Source: Lineus longissimus (taxonomy: Eukaryota; Nemertea; Pilidiophora; Heteronemertea; Lineidae). From it: a stretch of 64,000 nucleotides of DNA. Below are positions 37,268 to 61,041 of this stretch, in pieces. The DNA is taken from positions 14,646,437-14,710,436 of the forward strand of contig NC_088313.1 in the NCBI RefSeq assembly GCF_910592395.1. Reading direction: 5' to 3'. A program made the translations under genes and the position numbers. The number at the start of each line of letters is the position of its first letter. Within the stretch, counting starts at the first letter, position 1. The notes below the pieces were generated by a model. It saw only the letters and a list, made by a program, of their open reading frames with translations. It was not told where the DNA came from and ran no database searches.

Positions 37268-38811
37268 ATGTCCTGGGATAATTGTCCGATGATGTTTTTA
37301 ATATTCGCTTTGAAGCCGAAATGACCAAAAATAGCGGCTTAGAAATTAAAAAATCTGTAGAGTTAAAGTGAACAATGTCGCGTCTTCATCATGACGGTGA
37401 TGTCTTACGGAAAGGTTGTTCAACCAGAAGTTTCAGTCTGTCGGATGAGACTTAAAGCCATGGTCCCGCGTGTGTACCTGTGGGTGTCTTACACCACGTC
37501 AGGGAGTAACTGTTGAAAATGCAGTGCGGACTCAAAATTTTTCCCAACTCAAGGCCTAACATTGAATCAAAAGAGCTGTTGACAATGTTATGATGATGAT
37601 GTCTCATTAGTAGATTTCAAGATCTAATTTTGTCAGTTGCTTTCGAAATAAATCACAAACATCAGGGTGCCATCTGATCAAGAATTGTTTTCAATTTCAA
37701 TACGACATCTGTGACACTGTCAAACAGTATCTAATATAAGATGATCTGAGCTTGAATTGCCTTTCACACACCACTGTCAGACTGTTAGAGTTAAAAGAGG
37801 CAAAAGGAATCATCTATTGCCGCACCATCTATTAGTGAGATGTTGCCTTCACAAGCCCCTCGTCATCTGCTTGGATGCAATCTGAGATTCAGGGTTTTTC
37901 ACTCCTTCGTCATTACAAAACCCTGCACTGAGAAAAACCAATGAGATGCACTCTGGAGTAGCTGTTCTAATTACTTGACACAGACCCGTATATGTGTTTT
38001 TTTATTATTAAAAAATACAGATTTTAAACAAGTTCAATAAAGACTTTCTAACGCTTTCGTTTATTAATTTGTATCTATTTTACGCGGTTAAACACACTGC
38101 TTTAAAGTGTATATGGTGAAATGTATTAAACCTGCAGGGGGGGAAACATGACTGGTATAACGGCGATGACCGATAGCAGTTGATAACAACCAATGAAGAC
38201 GCGTGTTTGAATAACGTTGCTGCAACGATGATGATTCGGATGCAAGCCACGCTCTCATTGGCCGTTTTTTATTCTTCTACCACAATTCGTCTGAAGGGTA
38301 TGATTTCACCAGGGGTTTGAAGTGTCGAGAGGCGGAGTATATTGAAAACCACTGGTGCGCGGATGGCTGGGATGTTGGATTCGTCTTGCATGCCATGGTG
38401 TGTTCATCGGGATCAGAATCAATCCATACGGAACCTGGCAACGAAAAAGATGAGTGCTAAATTAGATAGTTTGAGCACGCAACGCTAAGGACGTATGCTC
38501 CATAAGATGGTTTCAGCACGCACACTCTTTAACAGAGATCGGGCCAGAAAGCCCTTTTCTCCTCGCACCAGTGGTTAAAGTATGTTTGCCGGTCAGGATG
38601 TTGATCAGTCTTGAAAGTTCGGCAATATCCTTGATAGGCGTATTAAGCTCGGGCACATGATAATGAGGAAAGCCATATTTGAAATGAACAGATGTTACTC
38701 GCTTTACTACTCATGCAATGATCAGCATCTTGTGGAGACTGATCCCTGTGAGGGTATTGCGCATTGCAATCACCTGGTATCTAGCTGTCCTGCGCTGTCC
38801 ATGTCGTTACG
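37268..38811. other. Intergenic between propeller gene 1 and MFS A
   Basis: No ORF of note. It contains half of a hairpin (37318-37355) whose complete form survives at 46564-46624. It presumably holds the MFS A promoter. The same sequence flanks the left end of the foldback element. Confidence 0.6.
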
Positions 38812-39055
38812 ATGGCGGGCTCTGAGTTGATGTGGAAAATAGTGACAACGTTCTGGCTCTCCTGTTCTTACATGGAATTGGTAAGCATAGCCTCATTACC
38901 CTGGCGAGCTCTGAGTTGATGTGGAAAATAGTGACAACGTTCTGGCTCTCTTGTTCTTACATGGAATTGGTAAGCAAAGCCTCATTACGCTGGAGGGCTC
39001 TGAGTTGATGTGGAAAAGAGTGACAACGTTCTGGCTCTCCTGTTCTTCTCCTCGT
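38812..39055 (+). repeat. Tandemly repeated first coding exon of MFS A, 3 copies
   Basis: Period about 88-89 bp: 38812-38880, 38901-38969 and 38990 to about 39050. Each unit contains GCTCTGAGTTGATGTGG and ACGTTCTGGCTCTC. Copies 1 and 2 end in TACATGGAATTG|GTAAGC. Copy 2 has CTGGCGAGC in place of ATGGCGGGC but keeps an internal in-frame ATG. Copy 3 is truncated after CTGTTC and lacks the donor. Confidence 0.9.
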
Positions 39056-46511: not shown

Positions 46512-48129
46512 ATGTCCTGGGATAATTGTCCGATGATGTTTTTAATATTCGCTTTGAAGCCGAAATGACCGAAAAAAGCGGCTTAGAAATTAAAAAATCT
46601 CTAAGCCGCTATTTTTCGGTCATTGCCTCTATAGAATCATAAAGCGTAATCCGTCAAAGTAGAATGGGACATCTTTTCTAACGGGACATGTTGTACTTCT
46701 ACACCGGCAGTTTGCGAGTTCGGGGTAAAACAAATCGAAGCGGAGTTAAAGTGAACAATGTCGCGTCTTCATCATGACGGTGATGTCTTACGGAAAGGCT
46801 GTTCAACCAGAAGTTGCAGTCTGACGGATAAGACTTAAAGCCATGGTCCCGCGTGTGTACCTGTGGGTGTCTTACACCACGTCAGGGAGTAACTGTTGAA
46901 AATGCAGTGCGGACTCAAAAATTTTTCCCAACTCAAGACCTAACATAGAATCAAAAGAGCTGTTGACAATGTTATGATGATGATGTCTCATTAGTAGATT
47001 TCAAGATCTAATTTTGTCAGTTGCTTTCGAAATAAATCACAAACATCAGGGTGCCATCTGATCAAGAATTGTTTTCAATTTCAATACGACATCTGTGACA
47101 CTGTCAAACAATATCTAATATACCTATAAGATGATCTAAGCTTGAATTGCCTTTCACACACCACTGTCAGACTGTTAGAGTTAAAAGAGGCAAAAGGAAT
47201 CATCTATTGCCGCACCATCTATTAGTGAGATGTTGCCTTCACAAGCCCCTCGTCATCTGCTTGGATGCAATCTGAGATTCAGGGTTTTTCACTCCTTCGT
47301 CATTACAAAACCCTGCACTGAGAAAAACCAATGAGATGCACTCTGGAGTAGCTGTTCTAATTACTTGACACAGACCCGTATATGTGGGTTTTTTATTATT
47401 AAAAAATACAGATTTTAAACAAGTTCAATAAAGACTTTCTAACGCTTTCGTTTATTAATTTGTATCTATTTTACGCGGTTAAACACACTGCTTTAAAGTG
47501 TATATGGTGAAATGTATTAAACCTGCAGGGGGGAAACATGACTGGTATAACGGCGATGACCGATAGCAGTTGATAACAACCAATGAAGACGCGTGTTTGA
47601 ATAACGTTGCTGCAACGATGATGATTCGGATGCAAGCCACGCTCTCATTGGCCGTTTTTTATTCTTCTACCACAATTCGTCTGAAGGGTATGATTTCACC
47701 AGGGGTTTGAAGTGTCGAGAGGCGGAGTATATTGAAAACCACTGGTGCACGGATGGCTGGGATGTTGGATTCGTCTTGCATGTCATGGTGCGTTCATCGG
47801 GATCAGAATCAATCCATACGGAACCTGGTTTCAGCACGCACACTGTTTAACAGAGATCGGGCCAGAAAGCCCTTTTCTCCTCGCACCAGTGGTTAAAGTA
47901 TGTTTGCCGGTCAGTATGTAGATCTGTCTTGAAAGTTCGGCAATATCCTTGATAGGCGTATTAAGCTCGGGCACAAGATAATGAGGAAAGCCATATTTGA
48001 AATGAACAGATGTTGGCTCGCTTTACTACTCATGCAATGATCAGCATATTGTGGAGACTGATCCCTGTCAGGGTATTGCGCATTGCAATCACCTGGTATC
48101 TAGCTGTCCTGCGCTGTCCATGTCGTTAC
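46512..48129. other. Intergenic, duplicated MFS 5' flank now separated from its gene
   Basis: Equivalent of 37268-38810. It ends where the foldback element begins, so the ancestral promoter region of MFS C now lies 9.3 kb from its coding exon. Confidence 0.7.
46564..46624. repeat. Short hairpin, ~27-bp arms
   Basis: AATGACCGAAAAAAGCGGCT pairs with AGCCGCTATTTTTCGGTCATT around an AT-rich loop. In copy 1 (37318-37355) only the left arm remains, and about 150 bp including the right arm is gone. Confidence 0.8.
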
Positions 48130-48133
48130 GATG
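48130..48133. repeat. Target-site duplication GATG, left
   Basis: Matches GATG at 57429-57432. The unoccupied site TTACGATGGCGGGC is at 38807-38820. Confidence 0.9.
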
Positions 48134-48410
48134 AACAGTCTATTAAATGGATTGGGATTTATTATTTCTGGGATTGGGCATTTGTCTACCAACACCAATA
48201 CCGGTACTGCCCCTATCAAATGATCTGCGACCCACGGTCAAAGTGGAACAAAAGTTCATCACCACGGCTCTTACAGTCCATAAGGTCGACTCCCGGTACA
48301 AAATAAGATAAAACTCCATGACAATGGTCGTAATCACTAAGAATTTCTAGGCCCGGTACACATTGATAGATAGCGCTAATTACCCCAGCAGTAAAATAGG
48401 CCTAGATAGT

Positions 48411-48740
48411 GACCCGGGTCGCTACGTAGCGCCCCGGGACAGATTGTTTGGAGATAGGTTTGTCCCGGGGCGCTACGTAGCGGCCCGGGACAGATTGTTT
48501 GGAGATAGCATTGTCCCGGGGCGCTACGTAGCGGCCCGGGAAGGGTTGGATGGAGTTGGCGTTATACCGGGCCGCTCCGTGATAGGTTGTCGGGAGATTG
48601 CGTTGTACCGGGGCGCTACGTAGCGGCCCGGGTAGGGTTGGATGAAGTTTGCATTATACCGGGCTGGTCCGTGATATGTTGTTAGGAGGTTGCGTTATAC
48701 CGGGTCACCCGGGTAGGGTTGAGTGGAGATGTGGTATACC
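48411..48740. repeat. Subterminal array of CGCTACGTAGCG palindromes (left arm)
   Basis: Four exact or near-exact 12-bp palindromes, each framed by CCCGGG/GCCCGGG, with centres near 48426, 48477, 48528 and 48619. Degenerate units (GCCGCTCCGTGAT, GGCTGGTCCGTGAT) lie between and after. Spacing 41-51 bp. Linkers alternate ACAGATTGTTTGGAGATAG and AGGGTTGGATG(G/A)AGTT. Confidence 0.9.
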
Positions 48741-50689
48741 CGGGACGGTTTGTTCGACAACGATGCTACCTGTGGTTGGAATAATTTTATTAATGATCAC
48801 CTTGGTTTCTTTTGATGATTAGTTAGCCTAAGACCGCAGTGGGGTCTCTAAAATGCGCTACCGGTTTCACGACAAATCATCCGATTTCCGTAAATATGAT
48901 ATCAAATCGCATGCAGACACAAGCTAGACTTCAGACATACATAATTCTGAAGCCTGGATAAAAGATACAATGTACATGTGCATGTAGTACATAATTCTGA
49001 AGCCTGGATGAAAGATACAATGTACATGTGCTTGTAGTACATATATATTGGCCTGGCAAAGTCATGAAGTATAGGCCTTGCTTCAGAGATGTTATGGACA
49101 TATTAGGTCATTGTCATATGTTCTTTCCTCCGTCTGGATTCTCTCTTGGGATGAGGCACTGCTCTTGATAGGTCTACTACATGCCATCTCAACCAGGATA
49201 GGTTTTACCAGGCCTACCCCCTCAGAGGAGACTTACTATGCAACTGCAATGACGAACAGGGACATCTTCTAGAAGGATTCTCCTTTGGGTTGGGGCACTC
49301 CGCCATTGATAGGCCTACTGCATGCCATGTCATCCACGGTGTGGGTTCTACCAGGCCTGCCCCCATAGAGGAGACTATCTATGCAACTGCAATGACGAAC
49401 ATGGACATCTTCTAGAAGAATTCTCCTTTGGCCTGCCCCCTCAGAGGAGACTATCCCTGTAACTGTAATATCGACCAGGGACATCTTCTACAAGAATTCT
49501 CCTTTGGGTTGGGGCACTCCGCCCTTGATAGGCCTACGTCTGTTACGGATCAACTCTGAAACAGTTTCAACTCTGAAGGACACCAACTCAACTTTGAAAC
49601 TGCATCTCTGAAAGTATGAAAGCCTATGACCGCAGTGGGTTCTCTAAAATGCGCTACCGGTTTCACGACAAATCAACCGAATTTCGTAAATATGATATCA
49701 AATCGCATGCAGACACAAGCTAGACTTCAGATAAACATAATTCTGAAGCCTGGATAAGATAAAAGATACAATGTACATGTGCATGTAGTACAAATATATT
49801 GGCCTGGCAAAGTCATGAAGTAATAGGCCTCGTTTCAGAGATGTTATGGACATATTTATTAGGTCCTTGTCATCTGTTCTTTCTTCCGTCCGTTTCATAT
49901 TTTCTTATTGATTTTGAAACCTTTTGTCCTTATATGTTAATGTTTTTGGAACAAAGAGATTGATACCCTGTTCACGGATGTGTAACAGCGCACTACTCCA
50001 TGACTTGTGTAGGCCTACTACTGTACGTGCATGCGTGTGTGCACATACAGTCTGTTGATGTACACACACGCTGTGTATGCCCTATTCCTAATTGACTCCT
50101 TCCCGCGCTCGTCACCAAGGCAACTCCAATTAGACATAAGGAAGTCCAGGCTTCATTCGTAGATGTTCGTATCAAAATTGCCGAGCACTACCGAAGTTGG
50201 ATGGGATATAGCAATGCAGCAGGCGGGTGGGAGAGGGGGGGACTCTTATAAATAGGCTAGGCCTAGAGATAGGTTGTGTCGTGACATGTCCTCGGCGACT
50301 GTTGTCTCATCTTTAGGCCTACTCTCGGAATAAGACACCAGCTGGGTGAAACACTAGGCCTACACCCCCTGCCTTATGAAGTATATAGGCCTAAAGGTTG
50401 TGACAATCCTCACTGTTAATTGTCTCATCTCTCCGAACTATGGGTTGTGACTTGTCTCCAGCGACTATCCTGATAGGCTAGGCTACTAGAGGACACCAAA
50501 TTTGGTCCTGCCTAATATTATTAACATCATTATCCGCATCATCATCATCATCATCTTCCGGTAGGCCTAAATGGTAGGGCGCAGTTTGCGCGTTATTAAC
50601 CATGAAGTAGTTGCTCATTACGCAGACGGTGCACAGACGTTTATAAAATCTTGGTCGGTGCGATTAAAACGATAAAATCTGGTGGTTAA

Positions 50690-51082
50690 AAAAGTTGTGG
50701 TCTACGCGGAGCTGGAGGCTAGGGGTCTTGGCAGATGTTGTCGCTTCTGGGAGGGTGTTCCAGCTTCTGATCGTTCTGTGGAAGAAGGATGATGCCTCTT
50801 GCTGGGTGGTATCTGTCCAGGCCTCGGGTCCTCGGGTCGCCCATGGTGATAGAGTCTGGGGCGACGAAGTCCACGAGACTGTGCCGGATATTGTAAAGCA
50901 CTGTAGTGATGCCTTCCTTCTCCTCTCTTTGAGTGTATCCCGCGGTAGGGTTTGGAGTTGGCGGGTGACAGATCCTGATCTTCGGTCTCTGTATTCATTG
51001 GAGACAAAAAAAATCGCGCTCCTCTTCGTTGAATATGCTCTAGTAGGTCGGTTGTGACTGCCCTTTTTACGACTATCTGCAT
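50690..51082 (-). mobile_element. LINE ORF2 C-terminal fragment (CR1/L2-like) in left arm
   Basis: Mirror copy of 53602-53995 on the opposite strand. It carries the same pieces (LLEHIQRRGARF; KERRRKA-type; LVDFVAPDSIT; SFFHRTIRSWNTLPE in different frames). Its frameshifts match the right-arm copy, so it was dead before the palindrome formed. Confidence 0.75.
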
Positions 51083-51639
51083 CTTAGTAAGGACACCTTG
51101 GTCTTGCCTATGTAGGACACTGTCAGCAGCACAGCAGCAGTATGTTGTTCTTTGCGATCTGTCTCATCTTGGTAGGTCTAGCCCCCCCCCCCCCCCACAG
51201 GACACATTGGTTCTGTCTATGATATCATAGGTTGTGACATGCCTTTTGCGACTATCTGTCTCATCTTGGTAGGCCTAGCCCCCCCCCCCCCCCTCCCCAC
51301 AGGACTTGTCCTTGTAAGGCCATCTCGATCTACCAGGGACAAATTTATGCCCGGGAGATATGCGTGTTTCGACTCTCTCTGAAACATACACCCCATCCTG
51401 TTTCTGTGGGGACTATTGAGACGCTGCTTTAGTCGAGCAGTCTAGACAGCCTAATGCGTACGCTTTATACCTGAAAACAAGGGGCCTTTGATAATGGCCC
51501 CCTTTCCTCAAAATGAATGTTATTTCAGTATTAAGTACAGGCGACTTGCAACCGGCTTAAACCCGCAGACAGAGTATACATCTAGGCCTAAGCCTAGGCC
51601 TTTTTAGCCAGCAATTGATCGAGGATGAGAAGATGAATA

Positions 51640-51870
51640 ATGTCTTCTGTGTCCGAGGGTTATAGCCGGTGCTAGGCATGTCACTGCACATAGGCATATT
51701 ACAGGTAAAACCAGGTATTATACCAGTAGGCTTACTAGTCTAGGCTACTGTGTCCGCGGGTTTTAGCCGTTTGCGGGTCGCCTGTAAAAATACCTTTTTT
51801 TATACCTGTAATAGGCCTATGTGTGGTGCTATTCTAGCACCGGCTAAAACCTGCGGACACAGTAGGCGTA
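51640..51870. repeat. Nested inverted repeat at the centre of the foldback element
   Basis: GTGTCCGAGGGTTATAGCCG, GGTGCTAG and CATATTACAGGTA on the left pair with TACCTGTAATAGG, CTAGCACC and CGGCTAAAACCTGCGGACAC on the right. Spacer about 90 bp. A second small hairpin (TCATTCTAAACA / TGTTTAGAATGG) lies near 52211-52240. Confidence 0.65.
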
Positions 51871-53039
51871 TACAATTATTTATTTTGTACAGGCGACCTG
51901 CAACCGGTAACCCGCGGTCATAGTAGTTGGCCTATCTCGATGTAGCCCCACTTTGCTTTGCTCGAATAATTATATAATTCGGGGACAAGCACTTCAGTTT
52001 AAAAATAAACTTTTTCATGCCGGTGAGAAGTTTAAAATGTCCTAGGTTGAAATGTCCGGGAACAAAGGATTCTATTATGCGCTTCAATCTCTGAGCTATT
52101 GACGGTCAGGGTCTCTATAGAACCATATTGCAGAATACAATAGGGCCGGACACTTTTTCCAGGGGGACACTTTTTACTTTTACACCGGATCCACAGGGCT
52201 AAATCAGAGTCATTCTAAACAACTGTTTAGAATGGCTCTGGCTAAATGAATCAGATACAGTACCGGATTATTATCAATTTGGTTTATTATTTGGTTTATT
52301 ATTTTGTATCTCACAGAGATATTAAACACCAAGTGTTTTCTTATAGTAAAGCATGGTACAATTCAATTTATTTCATCTTGTTAATGCCCATGGGGCTGTT
52401 ACAGATATATCATGAAGCATAGGCCTATGAGGAGAGACGAAATAATGTTCAGTAGGGGCCCATGTAGGCCTATACCCTATAGCTAGGTAGGCCTATAGTA
52501 CAGGACGCCAACACACGACCCCCAATAAGCAACCCAGTTCCTCACCCCGACCGCTTAATAAACGCGTGGGGATTACATAAAAGGCCTGCATTCACCCATG
52601 TGTATGCCACGCGATTGTGTAATTAAGATTGGATATAGGCCTAATTATTGTGTTTGTTGGAACCAGCTTCCCTTGAACCAAGCAGCGTGTATTATTATAG
52701 GCTCTTTTGGGCTACCATCTTGGACAGGTTTAGGCATGCACTGTAGTGTATAAAAGATGACTTTAATGGAGTTTTTCTGTAGAAATACTGATGATTGTTT
52801 GCACCTCTTTTATGCTTCAGCCCAGATACAAAATCTTCTGAAAATAGCATTTTAGTGTTCTGCTTATAACATAACTTTGTATGACTGTGATTAGATTAAG
52901 TTTTCACCAAATGAAAGACAAATAAATGACATTTAAGGCCCTACTTGTTATTCGTTGTGAAGATGATTCGTCATTCAAAAATGTCATGCTCATACATAAT
53001 GTGGTATGAAAGATTGGTGTCCTATTGTACCAAAATGAA

Positions 53040-53560
53040 ACAGATAGTCGCAAAGGACATGTAAACCCTTGATAAAAGGCAGGGCAAGGTGTCGTGTTCT
53101 ATATACTAAGATGAGACCACAGACTCGCAAAGGACATATAATATCATAGACAGAACCAAGGTGTCCTGTTGCACCACGATGACACAGTAGACGCAAAGCT
53201 AGGGCATGTCAGAACCTTTAATATCATAGCCAGAACCAATGTGTCCTGTGGGAGGGGGTAGGCCTACCAAGATGAGACAGATAGTCGCAAAGGGCAGCCA
53301 CAACCTATAATATCCATAGACAGGACCAATGTGTCATGCTGTACCAAGATGAGACAGATAGTCGCAAAGGGCAGCCACAACCTATAATATCATAGACAGA
53401 ACCAATGTGTCCTGTGGGGGGGGGGGGGCTAGGCCTACCAAGATGAGACAGATAGTCGCAAAGGGCATGTCACAACCTATGCTATCATACCCCCCACAGG
53501 GGTTAGGCCTACCAAGATGAGACAGATCGCAAAGAACAACATACTGCTGCTGTGCTGCTG
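53040..53560. repeat. Tandem repeats at inner edge of right arm
   Basis: Five or six units of about 75-110 bp, each containing CCAAGATGAGACAGATAGTC, GCAAAGG(G)CA, CACAACCTATAATATCATAG and ACAGAACCAATGTGTCCTGT. The left arm has only two such units, so the array expanded on one side. It includes a G13 tract at about 53416. Confidence 0.8.
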
Positions 53561-53601
53561 ACAGTGTCCTTCATAGGCAATACCAAGGTGTCCTTACTAA
53601 G

Positions 53602-53995
53602 ATGCAGATAGTCGTAAAAAGGGCAGTCACAACCGACCTACTGGAGCGAATTCAACGAAGAGCAGCGCGATTTTTTTTGTCACCAATGAATACAGAGACC
53701 GAAGACCAGGATCTGTCACCCGCCAACTCCAAACCCTACAGTGGGATACACTCAAAGAGAGGAGAAGGAAGGCATCACTACAGTGCTTTACAATATCCGG
53801 CACAGCCTCGTGGACTTCGTCGCCCCAGACTCCATCACCATGGGCGACCCGAGGACCCGAGGCCTGGACAGATACCACCCAGCAAGAGGCATCATCCTTC
53901 TTCCACAGAACGATCAGAAGCTGGAACACCCTCCCAGAAGCGACAACATCTGCCAAGACCCCTAGCCTCCAGCTCCGCGTAGACCACAACTATTT
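53602..53995 (+). mobile_element. LINE ORF2 C-terminal fragment (CR1/L2-like) in right arm
   Basis: Frame pieces: LLERIQRRAARF, then (shifted at a T-tract) FVTNEYRDRRPGSVTRQL and LQWDTLKERRRKASL, then (shifted) LYNIRHSLVDFVAPDSITMG and GDPRTRGLDRYHPA, then SFFHRTIRSWNTLPE. This is the typical C-terminal end of CR1/L2-type ORF2. At least two frameshifts; dead. Confidence 0.8.
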
Positions 53996-54914
53996 TAACC
54001 ACCAGATTTTATCGTTTTAATCGCACCGACCAAGATTTTATAAACGTCTGTGCACCGTCTGCGTAATGAGCAACTACTTCATGGTTAATAACGCGCAAAC
54101 TGCGCCCTACCATTTAGGCCTACCGGAAGATGATGATGATGATGATGCGGATAATGATGTTAATAATATTAGGCAGGACCAAATTTGGTGTCCTCTAGTA
54201 GCCTAGCCTATCAGGATAGTCGCTGGAGACACGTCACAACCCATATAGTTCGGAGAGATGAGACAATTAACAGTGAGGATTGTCACAACATTTAGGCCTA
54301 TATACTTCATAAGGCAGGGGGTGTAGGCCTCGTGTTTCACCCAGTTGGGGTCTTATTCCAAGAGTAGGCCTAAAGATGAGACAACAGTCGCCGAGGACAT
54401 GTCACGACACAACCTATCTCTAGGCCTAGCCTATTTATAAGAGTCCCCCACCCTCTCCCACCCGCCTGCTGCATTGCTATATCCCATCCAACTTCGGTGG
54501 TGCTCGGCAATTTTGATAAGAACATCTACGAATGAAGCCTGGACTTCCTTATGTCTAATTGGGGTTGCCTTGGTGACGAGCGCGGGAAGGAGTCAATTAG
54601 GAATAGGGCATACACAGCGTGTGTGTACATCAACAGACTGTATGTGCACACACGCATGCACGTACAGTAGTAGGCCTACACAAGTCATGGAGTAGTGCGC
54701 TGTTAAACATCCGTGAACAGGGTATCAATCTCTTTGTTCCAAATACATTAACATATAAGGACGAAAGGTTTCAAAATCAATAAGAAAATATGAAACGAAC
54801 GGAAGAATGAACAGATGACAAGGACCTAATAAATATGTCCATAACATCTCTGAAACGAGGCCTATTACTTCATGACTTTGCCAGGCCAATATATTTGTAC
54901 TACATGCACATGTG

Positions 54915-55840
54915 CACTCATGGTCAAAAGTTTATGGACACCAGATTTTGCACATTTTCTCAAAAACGGCTAATCCTTTTTTACCCAAATTTTCACCAAT
55001 GTTGAACAATCTTCTTGGCTATCGAATGATATCATAGTTGATATCAGGACCAATTGCATAACAAAGTTATTACATACTTTTGAGGGGCATCTATTTTTCA
55101 CTTTTTGGTTGATGGATTTTTTAACTCGAAGTATAAATCTTGCATCATACAGATAACAATGCTAAGACTTTCTGTGAAGAAAGTATTTGAAAATATCATT
55201 TACTTTTCATGATATATCAAAATATCAAAATTTTTATTTATCCATATTCTGAAAATTTTTAAATTTTTCTGATTTTTCGATATATCCTAGTAGTACCCAT
55301 GTCCCCTGAATGAATGGTGATTTTTTTCTGATTTTCAACTAAAGGAACATCTTGAAATTATAATATGAACATTTTCATACTACCAAGTATCCACCTTTTC
55401 TCAGCAATATTAGTTGCTAGCTGTGCTAAATTGGTGCCATTCATTATTTGGGTATGACTTCTCAATGATACAGTTGCAAAAAACCCAAAAATATCAAATT
55501 ATCAAAATATCAAAATATCAAAATTTTGATATTTCGATAGGCTATATCTCAAAACCGAAATGAGATTTATCCAATTTTTTTCACAGAAAGTCTTAGCAAT
55601 GTGCAAGATATAATGTAGGGTAAATTTGGTTTTGAAAAATTGATTAACAAAAAGGTAAAAAAAGATGCCTCTCAAAATGATGTAATAACTTTGTTATGCA
55701 ATTGGTCCTGATATCATCTATCACGTCATTCGATAGCCAAGAAGATTCTCCACCATTGGTGAAAATTTCGGTTCAATAGGATTAGCCGTTTTTGAGAAAA
55801 TGTGCAAAAACTGGTGTCCATAAACTTTTGAACATGATTG
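54915..55840. mobile_element. 926-bp palindromic MITE, Tc1/mariner-like ends, inserted in the right arm only
   Basis: Ends CA(C/A)TCATG(G/T)TCAAAAG followed by TTTATGGACACCAG in inverted orientation. Inverted similarity extends about 280 bp inwards (CTCAAAAACGGCTAATCC, ATTGCATAACAAAGTTATTA, TAAGACTTTCTGTGA). The right flank is TA (55841-55842); the left flank is TG where the uninterrupted left arm has TA, consistent with a mutated TA duplication. No transposase. Confidence 0.85.
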
Positions 55841-56819
55841 TACATTGTATCTTTTATCCAGGCTTCAGAATTATGTTTGTCTGAAGTCTAGCTTGTGTCT
55901 GCATGCGATTTGATATCATATTTACGAAATTCGGTTGATTTGTCGTGAAACCGGTAGCGCATTTTAGAGAACCCACTGCGGTCATAGGCTTTCATACTTT
56001 CAGAGATGCAGTTTCAAAGTTGAGTTGGTGTCTTTCAGAGTTGAAACTGTTTCAGAGTTGATCCGTAACAGACGTAGGCCTATCAAGGGCGGAGTGCCCC
56101 AACCCAAAGGAGAATCCTTGTAGAAGATGTCCCTGGTCGATATTACAGTTACAGGGATAGTCTCCTGTGAGGGGGCAGGCCAAAGGAGAATTCTTCTAGA
56201 AGATGTCCATGTTCGTCATTGCAGTTGCATAGATAGTCTCCTCTATGGGGGCAGGCCTGGTAGAACCCACACCGTGGATGACATGGCATGCAGTAGGCCT
56301 ATCAATGGCGGAGTGCCCCAACCCAAAGGAGAATCCTTCTAGAAGATGTCCCTGTTCGTCATTGCAGTTGCATAGATAGTCTCCTCTGAGGGGGTAGGCC
56401 TGGTAAAACCTATCCTGGTTGAGATGGCATGTAGTAGATCTATCAAGAGCAGTGCCTCATCCCAAGAGAGAATCCAGACGGAGGAAAGAACATATGACAA
56501 TGACCTAATATGTCCATAACATCTCTGAAGCAAGGCATATACTTCATGACTTTGCCAGGCCAATATATATGTACATCATGCACATGTACATTGTATCTTT
56601 TATCCAGGCTACAGAATTATGTATGTCTGAAGTCTAGCTTGTGTCTGCATGCGATTTGATATCATATTTACGGAATTCGGATGATTTGTCGTGAAACCGG
56701 TAGCGCATTTTAGAGACCCCACTGCGGTCTTAGGCTAACTAATCATCAAAAGAAACCAAGGTGATCATTAATAAAATTATTCCAACCACAGGTAGCATCG
56801 TTGTCGAACAAACCGTCCC

Positions 56820-57150
56820 GGGTATACCACAATCTCCACTCAACCCTACCCGGGTGACCCGGTATAACGCAACCTCCTAACAACATATCACGGACCAGCC
56901 CGGTATAATGCAAACTTCATCCAACCCTACCCGGGCCGCTACGTAGCGCCCCGGTACAACGCAATCTCCCGACAACCTATCACGGAGCGGGCCGGTATAA
57001 CGCCAACTCCATCCAACCCTTCCCGGGCCGCTACGTAGCGCCCCGGGACAATGCTATCTCCAAACAATCTGTCCCGGGCCGCTACGTAGCGCCCCGGGAC
57101 AAACCTATCTCCTAACAATCTGTCCCGGGGCGCTACGTAGCGACCCGGGT
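56820..57150. repeat. Subterminal array of CGCTACGTAGCG palindromes (right arm)
   Basis: Mirror of 48411-48740, with four CGCTACGTAGCG cores (near 56943, 57034, 57085, 57136) and the same CCCGGG frames. Confidence 0.9.
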
Positions 57151-57428
57151 CACTATCTAGGCCTATTTTACTGCTGGGGTAATTAGCGCTATCTATCAAT
57201 GTGCACCGGGCCTAGAAATTCTTAGTGATTACGACCATTGTCATGGAGTTTTATCTTATTTTGTACCGGGAGTCGACCTTATGGACTGTAAGAGCCGTGG
57301 TGATGAACTTTTGTTCCACTTTGACCGTGGGTCGCAGATCATTTGATAGGGGCAGTACCGGTATTGGTGTTGGTAGACATATGCCCAATCCCAGAAATAA
57401 TAAATCCCAATCCATTTAATAGACTGTT

Positions 57429-57432
57429 GATG
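57429..57432. repeat. Target-site duplication GATG, right
   Basis: Its ATG is the start codon of MFS C (57430-57432). Confidence 0.9.
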
Positions 57433-57765
57433 GCGGACTCTGCGTTCGTGTGGAAAATAGTGACAACGTTCTGGCTCTCCTGTTCTTACATGGAATTGGT
57501 AAGCATAGCCTCATTACCCTGGCGAGCTCTGAGTTGATGTAGAAAATATTGATAACGTTCTGGCTCTCCTGTTCTTACATGGAATTGGTAAGCATAACCT
57601 CATTTTGCTGGAGAGCTCTGAGTTGATGTGGAAAATAGTGACAACGTTCTGGCTCTCTTGTTCTTACATGGAATTGGTAAGCATAGCCTCATTACGCTGG
57701 AGGGCTCTGAGTTGATGTGGAAAAGAGTGACAACGTTCTGGCTCTCCTGTTCTTCTCCTCGTCAG
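57430..57765 (+). repeat. Tandemly repeated first coding exon of MFS C, 4 copies
   Basis: Starts at 57430, about 57519, about 57608 and about 57697. Copy 2 has the internal ATG followed by TAG (GATGTAGAAAATA) and cannot start there. Copy 3 keeps ATGTGGAAAATAGTG and a GTAAGC donor. Copy 4 is truncated as in MFS A. One more copy than MFS A. Confidence 0.9.
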
Positions 57766-59615: not shown

Positions 59616-61041
59616 CTCCAGGTGAAAGTCAATTGATTTGGTGAAACTCCTCTCTTACGGCAAACACGACATCTCCTTTGATCAGAAATCTTAGCATACC
59701 TATGACATTTGTCAAGACTCCGTCACAATGGGTGAATATTCACAAACAATGACAAAGGTCGTTCGAGGAGTTTCGAAGAGTTACGTGTTGAGTGGCTGTG
59801 GCGGACATAACGGGCGCAGTCTGATCGACGGGGGGATAGAGAGAAGTTTAATCAGCCTGATCTGGCTACCCCACGTGGATCTAGAATCTTTGCCTCAGTT
59901 TATGTTCAGAATTTATAACCAGTGTCAAATGCCGGCATTCTCCTGCGCAGTAACAGTAGTATGATGAGGCTATTGAATCTAAACGTGCCCCCGGTTTGAG
60001 CACGCACACTTTTTAACAGAGATCTTGTCAGAGAGCCCCCTTCTCCATGCACCAGTGTGGTTACAGTATGTATGCCGCTATCAGTCTTAACAGTTCGGTA
60101 CTATCCTCGACGATAAAGAGCAAATGTTGTGATGCCCCTGATCGTCGAGCAAGGCTTACACTGATGGATGCTGGACGAACTCCTGAATCTGCAGAACTAG
60201 CGAGAGAGCACCGTTGAATGGATGAAGTAAATATGGGCCAAGGAATACTCAAAGTCTGTTGTGTCTTCAAAAATTTGTTGCACTTATTATAATTATAATA
60301 AAGATGTTCCAGTACAGATGTTACTTTGTTCGGATCGCCTCTTGGTGTCGGCATGAGGGCAGCCTGTTAAAAGGGCAGATTAATTGGATGACATGTGATC
60401 AGTCACCTCGATTGTCATTGGTCAAACGACAATTTGTTGGTCCAGCAGACTCCAAGGAGGTGGCGACCCCACTTCCAAAGAGTCACCTGCTTCACAAAAT
60501 GTCCCTCATCGTACACGTTACATTGCACCCTCATGATATCGACCATCATGCTACAATTTAAACTCAATTTAGGTTATTCCTTTTGGAAAACAAGTTTTCA
60601 ATACTAACTCAAAAGTGTACGTAACATAACTACATGTATGCTATGAATGCTGTATGATGGTTTAATGTTACTCTCTTGAACAATGGGAGTTATAAAAACG
60701 TAGAAAAGGCATTTGAAAGTCCTTGATAACACAAATATATAATTGAATTAAACAGATGTTTGCTCAGTTTACTTCTTTTAACAGACATTGCAACAACGTG
60801 CGTCTAATATCATGGGCGAAATTGAATTGAACAGATGGTCTCTTTACTCCTCATAATTGACCTTGTGTGCGGAGGCAACGGAGGCAATGCCAGATTGAAG
60901 TTCAGTATGACTGGCAATAATAAACACCTTGTGGGGGTAATGGCTGTTTGGGTATAGACGCATCGCAATCACCAGCGCTGCCAGTGTCGTCGTTCTGGCT
61001 CTCCTGTTCTTACATGGAACGGTAAGCATAGCCTCATTACG
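59616..61041. other. Intergenic between MFS C and MFS D
   Basis: 59616-60640 duplicates the MFS A 3' flank. Near 60991 there is a partial exon-1 unit (GTTCTGGCTCTCCTG ... ATGGAACGGTAAGC) before the complete exon 1 of MFS D. No other gene seen. Confidence 0.6.

Follow-up and report, generated by a model that had tools for sequence, protein, structure and literature searches.

The stretch of DNA analysed here (the window, 64,000 nucleotides; G000:C6:14646437-14710436) comes from chromosome C6 (21,663,950 bases, ~21.66 Mb) of Lineus longissimus, in a genome of 391,118,348 bases, in line with the 391 Mb of the published bootlace-worm assembly (PMC8593623). Across its positions 35736-64000, MFS genes (sodium-dependent glucose transporter 1-like) lie in tandemly duplicated blocks that are 86–99% identical, and an MFS-type open reading frame (ORF) of the window is 83% identical to a L. 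longissimus protein. At 48134-57428, one of these duplicates contains a 9.3-kb palindromic element. Self-comparison of the window showed its arms to be mirror images (blocks 49772-51291/54916-53416 and 48131-49777/57431-55839). A prediction made from the sequence of the window alone (the original prediction) had described this element as a mobile insertion, as opposed to a mere inverted duplication, and the paralogous MFS A locus as its empty site.

The insertion locus and its empty paralogue belong to one tandem MFS-gene duplication, which allowed the junctions to be compared directly. The left flank (47826-48133) is 97.1% identical to 38508-38814 and the right flank (57429-57665) is 93.7% identical to 38811-39047. 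As the match to the paralogue ends at 38814 for the left flank and begins at 38811 for the right one, the two alignments share exactly 4 bp, GATG, which is single at the empty site and was duplicated around the element. The right flank is made of 89-bp tandem repeats (57438-57754), which could let its alignment slip by one unit, although the 4-bp overlap itself is exact; a further caveat is that TTACGATGGCGGGC is present at 61037 besides 38807. The 9.3-kb palindrome is a genuine mobile insertion.

Considering the whole genome (391 Mb), the 17-bp end of the element was found at 38 places with at most one mismatch (3 for the reversed control), and the 32-bp end at 41 places with at most three (0 for the control), of which 32 had no mismatch, five had one and four had two. 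These counts are far above the controls, so the ends are not due to chance; the union of both searches gave 42 ends. Eight clean inverted pairs, 6,259 to 13,469 bp long, were recovered on C1, C3, C4, C5, C6 (the window copy), C8, C10 and C12. All eight have AACAG ends, so that the elements read AACAG...CTGTT (common family ends, AACAGTCTATTAAATGG...), and all eight are flanked by an exact 4-bp duplication, with no match at any other length from 2 to 7 bp. The duplications all differ (GATG, TTTA, GCCT, TCAA, TATC, TAAT, TCCA and ATTG), and flanks swapped between partners never matched (0/56); at equal base frequencies, we calculate the chance of eight such matches as about (1/256)^8. The further genomic copies whose absence would have refuted the original prediction, by its own terms, are therefore present, and its claim of mobility is borne out by these duplications together with the empty site. 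Five exact matches to the 17-mer in IMG/VR (L056-L060) were taken as chance. Beside the copy on C10 lies an ORF (L018:427-936) whose GCGEQN thioester motif, judged by eye, is of the type seen in alpha-2-macroglobulin-like proteins.

Long, near-identical inverted arms are classic sites of misassembly, and the palindrome might in principle be an inversion artefact of the assembly or a plain inverted segmental duplication. We regard both as hardly credible: at eight separate loci the ends are the same and the 4-bp duplications exact, and the window contains an empty paralogue. Also against them, the published assembly was built on HiFi libraries from DNA sheared to 12–20 kb, at 79-fold long-read coverage (PMC8593623).

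Fourteen of the 16 arms of the paired copies share 98.2–99.9% identity in their outer 700 bp, which indicates a young family; E_C4_R and E_C8_L, which align there at only 49–62% owing to an insertion or loss, were left out of this count. For the inner arms, sides A and B were set by a lone Ginger1 end in the spacer, a mark independent of the arms themselves, in seven of the eight copies (the side is arbitrary in E_C8). In a midpoint-rooted tree of 15 inner arms (E_C8_A absent), the seven A arms and E_C1_B stand apart from the other seven B arms (support 93/96). The mean inner-arm distance between elements is 1.35% for the same side and 1.82% for opposite sides (49 pairs each), and the two arms within an element differ by 1.31–2.38% in six of seven elements. 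With E_C1 set aside, four columns separate A and B fully. The observed count of five near-diagnostic columns is attained by 3 of 128 relabelings, one of which is the true labelling. Since same-side inner arms tend to cluster across copies, the palindrome probably formed once, before the family spread, and the copies then moved as whole palindromes; support for this is modest.

We read the element as a non-autonomous foldback-type DNA transposon that forms a small, young family in L. longissimus, with a probability of roughly 0.9. Several observations weigh against this. First, 26 of the 42 ends lie outside any clean pair, many of them truncated or interrupted (single ends mostly follow the family arm for 70 to >1,000 bp and then break off), and one, L027, matches over ~30 bp only. 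Second, a pair on C11 has TACAG ends 31.2 kb apart and differing flanks (TGAG versus CATG). Third, the junctions of the copies are known from assembled sequence alone. Fourth, the support of 93/96 for the split between arms falls short of the tool's starred level, which one of 12 inner branches reaches, the root is a midpoint, and E_C1_B groups with the A arms, at 0.33% from E_C1_A, in what appears to be a case of arm-to-arm conversion. Finally, the autonomous partner expected by the original prediction did not turn up: no transposase assignable to the family was found behind 39 of the 42 ends, some of which were covered by ORF listing or DNA comparison alone and not by a scan of every frame. 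The C11 pair (C11:9884334-9915521; L021, L022), whose TACAG-variant ends enclose nested elements in the parts read, is taken as a chimeric or rearranged copy, and L041 and L042, which have common flanks, are a local duplication.

Apart from the nested hairpin, the arms of the window element are 3,158 and 3,085 bp long and 98.3% identical over 3,080 aligned positions, with identity at 98–100% over most of the length, dropping to 96% and 93% in the two comparison windows nearest the spacer. The features are collected in Table 1. The mirror-image arms of 3.2 and 4.0 kb, the GATG at both ends and the empty MFS A locus are all as first described, and the exact match of the outermost 17 bp was correct but understated, as it extends to 48 bp. 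The hairpin is an insert in the right arm (the left arm lacks it near 49772-49777) and is found in other family copies too, so it has spread together with them.

Table 1. Positions of the element's parts, its target duplication and the empty site in the window.
Feature	Position	Strand	Remark
Target duplication, left copy (GATG)	48130..48133		
Target duplication, right copy (GATG)	57429..57432		
Single GATG at the paralogous empty site	38811..38814		Flank alignments overlap by 4 bp
Left arm	48134..51291	+	3,158 bp
Right arm	53416..57428	-	4,013 bp with nested hairpin counted
Outermost 48 bp, left arm	48134..48181	+	Identical to right-arm counterpart
Outermost 48 bp, right arm	57381..57428	-	Identical to left-arm counterpart
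Spacer between the arms	51292..53415		
Subterminal tandem repeats, 51- and 92-bp units	48413..48704	+	Four CGCTACGTAGCG palindromes beside CCCGGG-type sequence, CCGG-rich
Subterminal repeats, mirror copy	56858..57149	-	
Putative captured fragment, like the C-terminal part of a non-LTR (long terminal repeat) retrotransposon reverse transcriptase, frames broken	50702..51082	-	By eye
Putative captured fragment, mirror copy in right arm	53602..53982	+	
Lone Ginger1-type terminus CTTTTACA, then CCGG, in spacer	52177..52188	+	Orients the copies
171-bp tandem repeats across the border of spacer and inner right arm	53137..53489	+	
Nested imperfect hairpin, ~0.93 kb	54911..55838		73.9% versus its own reverse complement

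Two parts of this anatomy bear on how the element might move. The CCGG-rich subterminal repeats start at about position 281 of the arm and run inward, with CGCTACGTAGCG at arm positions 287, 338, 389 and 481 in both arms of six of the eight paired copies; in E_C4 and E_C8 the pattern is gone from one arm, and the other arm of E_C8 keeps three. Of the 126 CCGG sites in the window, 50 belong to the element, and each of its arms contributes 17 from its outer 800 bp. As for coding capacity, the longest stop-to-stop frame within the window element (frames listed from 110 amino acids upward) has 153 amino acids, lies at mirror positions in both arms and, judged by eye, resembles the C terminus of a reverse transcriptase of non-LTR type; Pfam gave nothing above its cut-off for the two frames scanned. 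In keeping with the original prediction, no transposase is visible in this copy. A DDE-type transposase from a separate element would bind the ends, and perhaps also the palindromic subterminal repeats (48413-48704, our proposed transposase-binding region), move the element and integrate it with a stagger of 4 bp, being largely unselective about target sequence. The arms themselves probably go back to an inverted duplication of one end along with captured sequence; the retrotransposon-like fragment sits at mirrored positions in the two. The lone CTTTTACA-CCGG terminus of the spacer is common to seven of the eight paired copies and absent in E_C8.

The search for such a mover covered the 16 paired ends and L003-L005, L008, L021-L028, L039-L046 and L063-L065; the three ends outside it are C9:10996100, C9:19522608 and C13:5188372. 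Single ends were followed inward for ~0.9 to 9 kb, with 15 of the inspected ends followed for ~0.9–3 kb only. ORFs were listed from 110 amino acids for the pairs and L021-L028 and from 70 for L003, L008, L039, L040 and L043, the remaining inspected ends were compared as DNA, and selected ORFs were scanned against Pfam. The C1 pair contains Harbinger-type genes (DDE_Tnp_4, Myb) and the C8 pair a DDE_1 gene; as no such ORF of at least 110 amino acids was seen in the other six pairs, both were taken as nested. A 452-amino-acid ORF at L040 had no Pfam match. At L021:5050-10000, a PF20700 transposase ORF and, on the other strand, a zf-His_Me_endon ORF lie between direct repeats that measure at least 757 bp and are 99.7% identical; this unit resembles KolobokP, which has been reported from L. 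longissimus with repeats of ~450 or 660 bp (PMC9587614).

Two loci raised the possibility that the element is a non-autonomous Polinton/Maverick derivative moved by the Polinton integrase. At L028, the AACAG end precedes an ORF that contains a chromodomain (E 3.7e-8) and a weak integrase match (rve_3, E 0.0046, below cut-off), and relatives of this ORF carry PF00665; an ORF for a Pox_A32-type ATPase (E 1.6e-14) is present as well. At L024, a capsid-like ORF lies inward of the end (Capsid_N, E 0.0059, below cut-off). Against this, Polinton copies at L028 (start at 2014), L033 (1300), L050 (2027) and L052 have a common terminus of their own, 5'-AGTAATAGGGAAACG, which L049 matches with two mismatches, and at L028 this terminus lies 1,013 bp inside the AACAG end (1001) instead of coinciding with it. 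The capsid-region DNA of L024 is 77.7% identical to that of L029, whereas L024 and L028 share 97.8% identity at their AACAG ends. With L024 and L028 excepted, no integrase match among the 150 that were scored lies within 15 kb of an end. Once the Polinton's own terminus had been found, we rejected it as the autonomous partner and took it as nested debris, and a Polinton origin of the element appears very improbable. The intervening L028:1466-2013 (548 bp) was likewise rejected as a partner exon: it occurs at four places including itself, none of the three others near a listed AACAG end, and the two of these that were read both continue, by eye, into a DIRS-type reverse transcriptase. Polintons start with AG and make 6-bp duplications, and the four left ends that we compared begin with AG. 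With 150 of 935 candidates scored, the closely related Polinton integrase matches of the genome number no fewer than 150, and many of them have open frames. One locus, L038:61-3401 (C6:6334800-6338200), has two Polinton pieces as inverted arms, 99.93% identical around a 433-bp spacer, and integrase matches flank this pair at C6:6331243 and 6341125.

Ginger1, also a 4-bp duplicator, was the other candidate source. At L022, ~1–6.5 kb from an AACAG end, there are an exon matching Integrase_H2C2 (E 1.4e-17) and exons with weak integrase-core matches (rve, E 0.098; rve_3, E 0.066). L022 also has a last exon that looks GPY-like by eye and had no match in Pfam, and a second copy of this last exon lies on C1, 1.6 kb from an end. 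That the foldback element derives from Ginger1 is nevertheless scarcely plausible, as the structure of both loci is that of a nested guest: at L022 (C11) and on C1 the Ginger1 terminus, CTTTTACA|CCGG, is followed directly by the resumed foldback arm, and C1 shows the junctions of either side, CCGG|TGTAAAAG and CTTTTACA|CCGG, which fall on one and the same CCGG (arm position 526-529). Two further copies, on C13 and C19, have this Ginger1 end within DNA that does not match the element. These features agree with the signature published for Ginger1, TGTNR ends and CCGG targets (PMC2836005). Ginger1, with its own ends and its own CCGG duplication, was rejected as the partner. Matches to the last exon at ≥80% identity define 28 Ginger1 loci (fragments at one locus counted once; junctions read at four), two of which, on C11 and C1, lie <2 kb from an AACAG end. 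With ~17 CCGG sites in an intact arm, ~0.04 loci would be expected in arms (a rough value, assuming 42 intact arms and the CCGG density of the window outside the element); two are more than this, which suggests that the foldback arms, with their CCGG-rich subterminal repeats, may be landing pads for Ginger1 (copies inserted at CCGG sites within arms: L003, L022, L055).

As a refinement of the reading given above, we consider it likely that the mover of the foldback family belongs to a known superfamily making 4-bp duplications (Sola, Academ or another), with diverged ends, or has been lost. Academ makes 3-4-bp duplications. Sola2 makes 4-bp duplications too, AT-rich ones (PMC3627910), whereas those of the Lineus family are not AT-restricted (GCCT, TCCA, GATG), and the inspection of 39 of the 42 ends brought up no Sola- or Academ-type transposase, neither having been specifically sought. 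A more speculative proposal, which we think unlikely, is an undescribed superfamily with AACAG...CTGTT ends and unselective 4-bp duplications, whose transposase would bind the CCCGGG-framed CGCTACGTAGCG and in which a palindromic derivative took over, its CCGG-rich arms turning into preferred landing sites of the CCGG-specific Ginger1.

The family offers a clearly delimited example of how long palindromic transposons multiply, in an animal phylum that, in our judgement, has received little transposon research. With eight clean copies and an empty site, the formation, spread and palindrome upkeep of foldback elements become directly testable. The Lineus arms collect other transposons, and arms of this type can drive inversions, as those of Galileo are described to have done (PMC3573991).

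Limited literature text searches on foldback, Polinton, Sola/Academ/Chapaev and nemertean elements (repeat libraries lay outside their scope) gave no description of this family, so we provisionally call it undescribed and regard the family as new, but as one of a mixed kind already known. The original prediction had also suggested an undescribed foldback family; its reasoning from duplication length was weak, because the foldback shape is common to unrelated superfamilies, Galileo being a member of the P superfamily. As in foldback-type elements, long, internally repeated inverted arms make up most of the element, and several genomic copies have target duplications (8/8 pairs). Compared by description, Drosophila FB shares the foldback shape and the internally repeated arms; its duplication is 9 bp, against 4 bp here, and the 12-bp flanks of the eight pairs show no 9-bp match. 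Kolobok and piggyBac duplicate TTAA, which was found in none of the eight pairs. Ginger1 is present in the Lineus genome and shares the 4-bp duplication, but is characterised by TGTNR ends and CCGG/CCGT targets (PMC2836005), in contrast to the AACAG ends and varied targets of the Lineus family (CCGG or CCGT in 0/8 pairs). Chapaev, with 3-4-bp duplications, is described with invariant CAC...GTG ends (PMC4079192), which the Lineus family lacks, and Sola2 with inverted repeats of 12–21 bp (PMC3627910). Galileo of Drosophila resembles the Lineus element, again by description, in its long, internally repetitive inverted repeats; it differs in having a known encoded transposase and 7-bp duplications, and the Lineus flanks match at 4 bp only, not at the 9 or 7 bp of FB or Galileo, in all eight pairs. 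According to PMC3573991, the first Galileo copies found consisted of long inverted repeats only, the element was called foldback-like before it was placed in the P superfamily, and the tandem repeats near its ends were proposed as secondary transposase-binding sites. The same source describes chimeric Galileo copies without matching duplications, with which the Lineus C11 pair may be compared.

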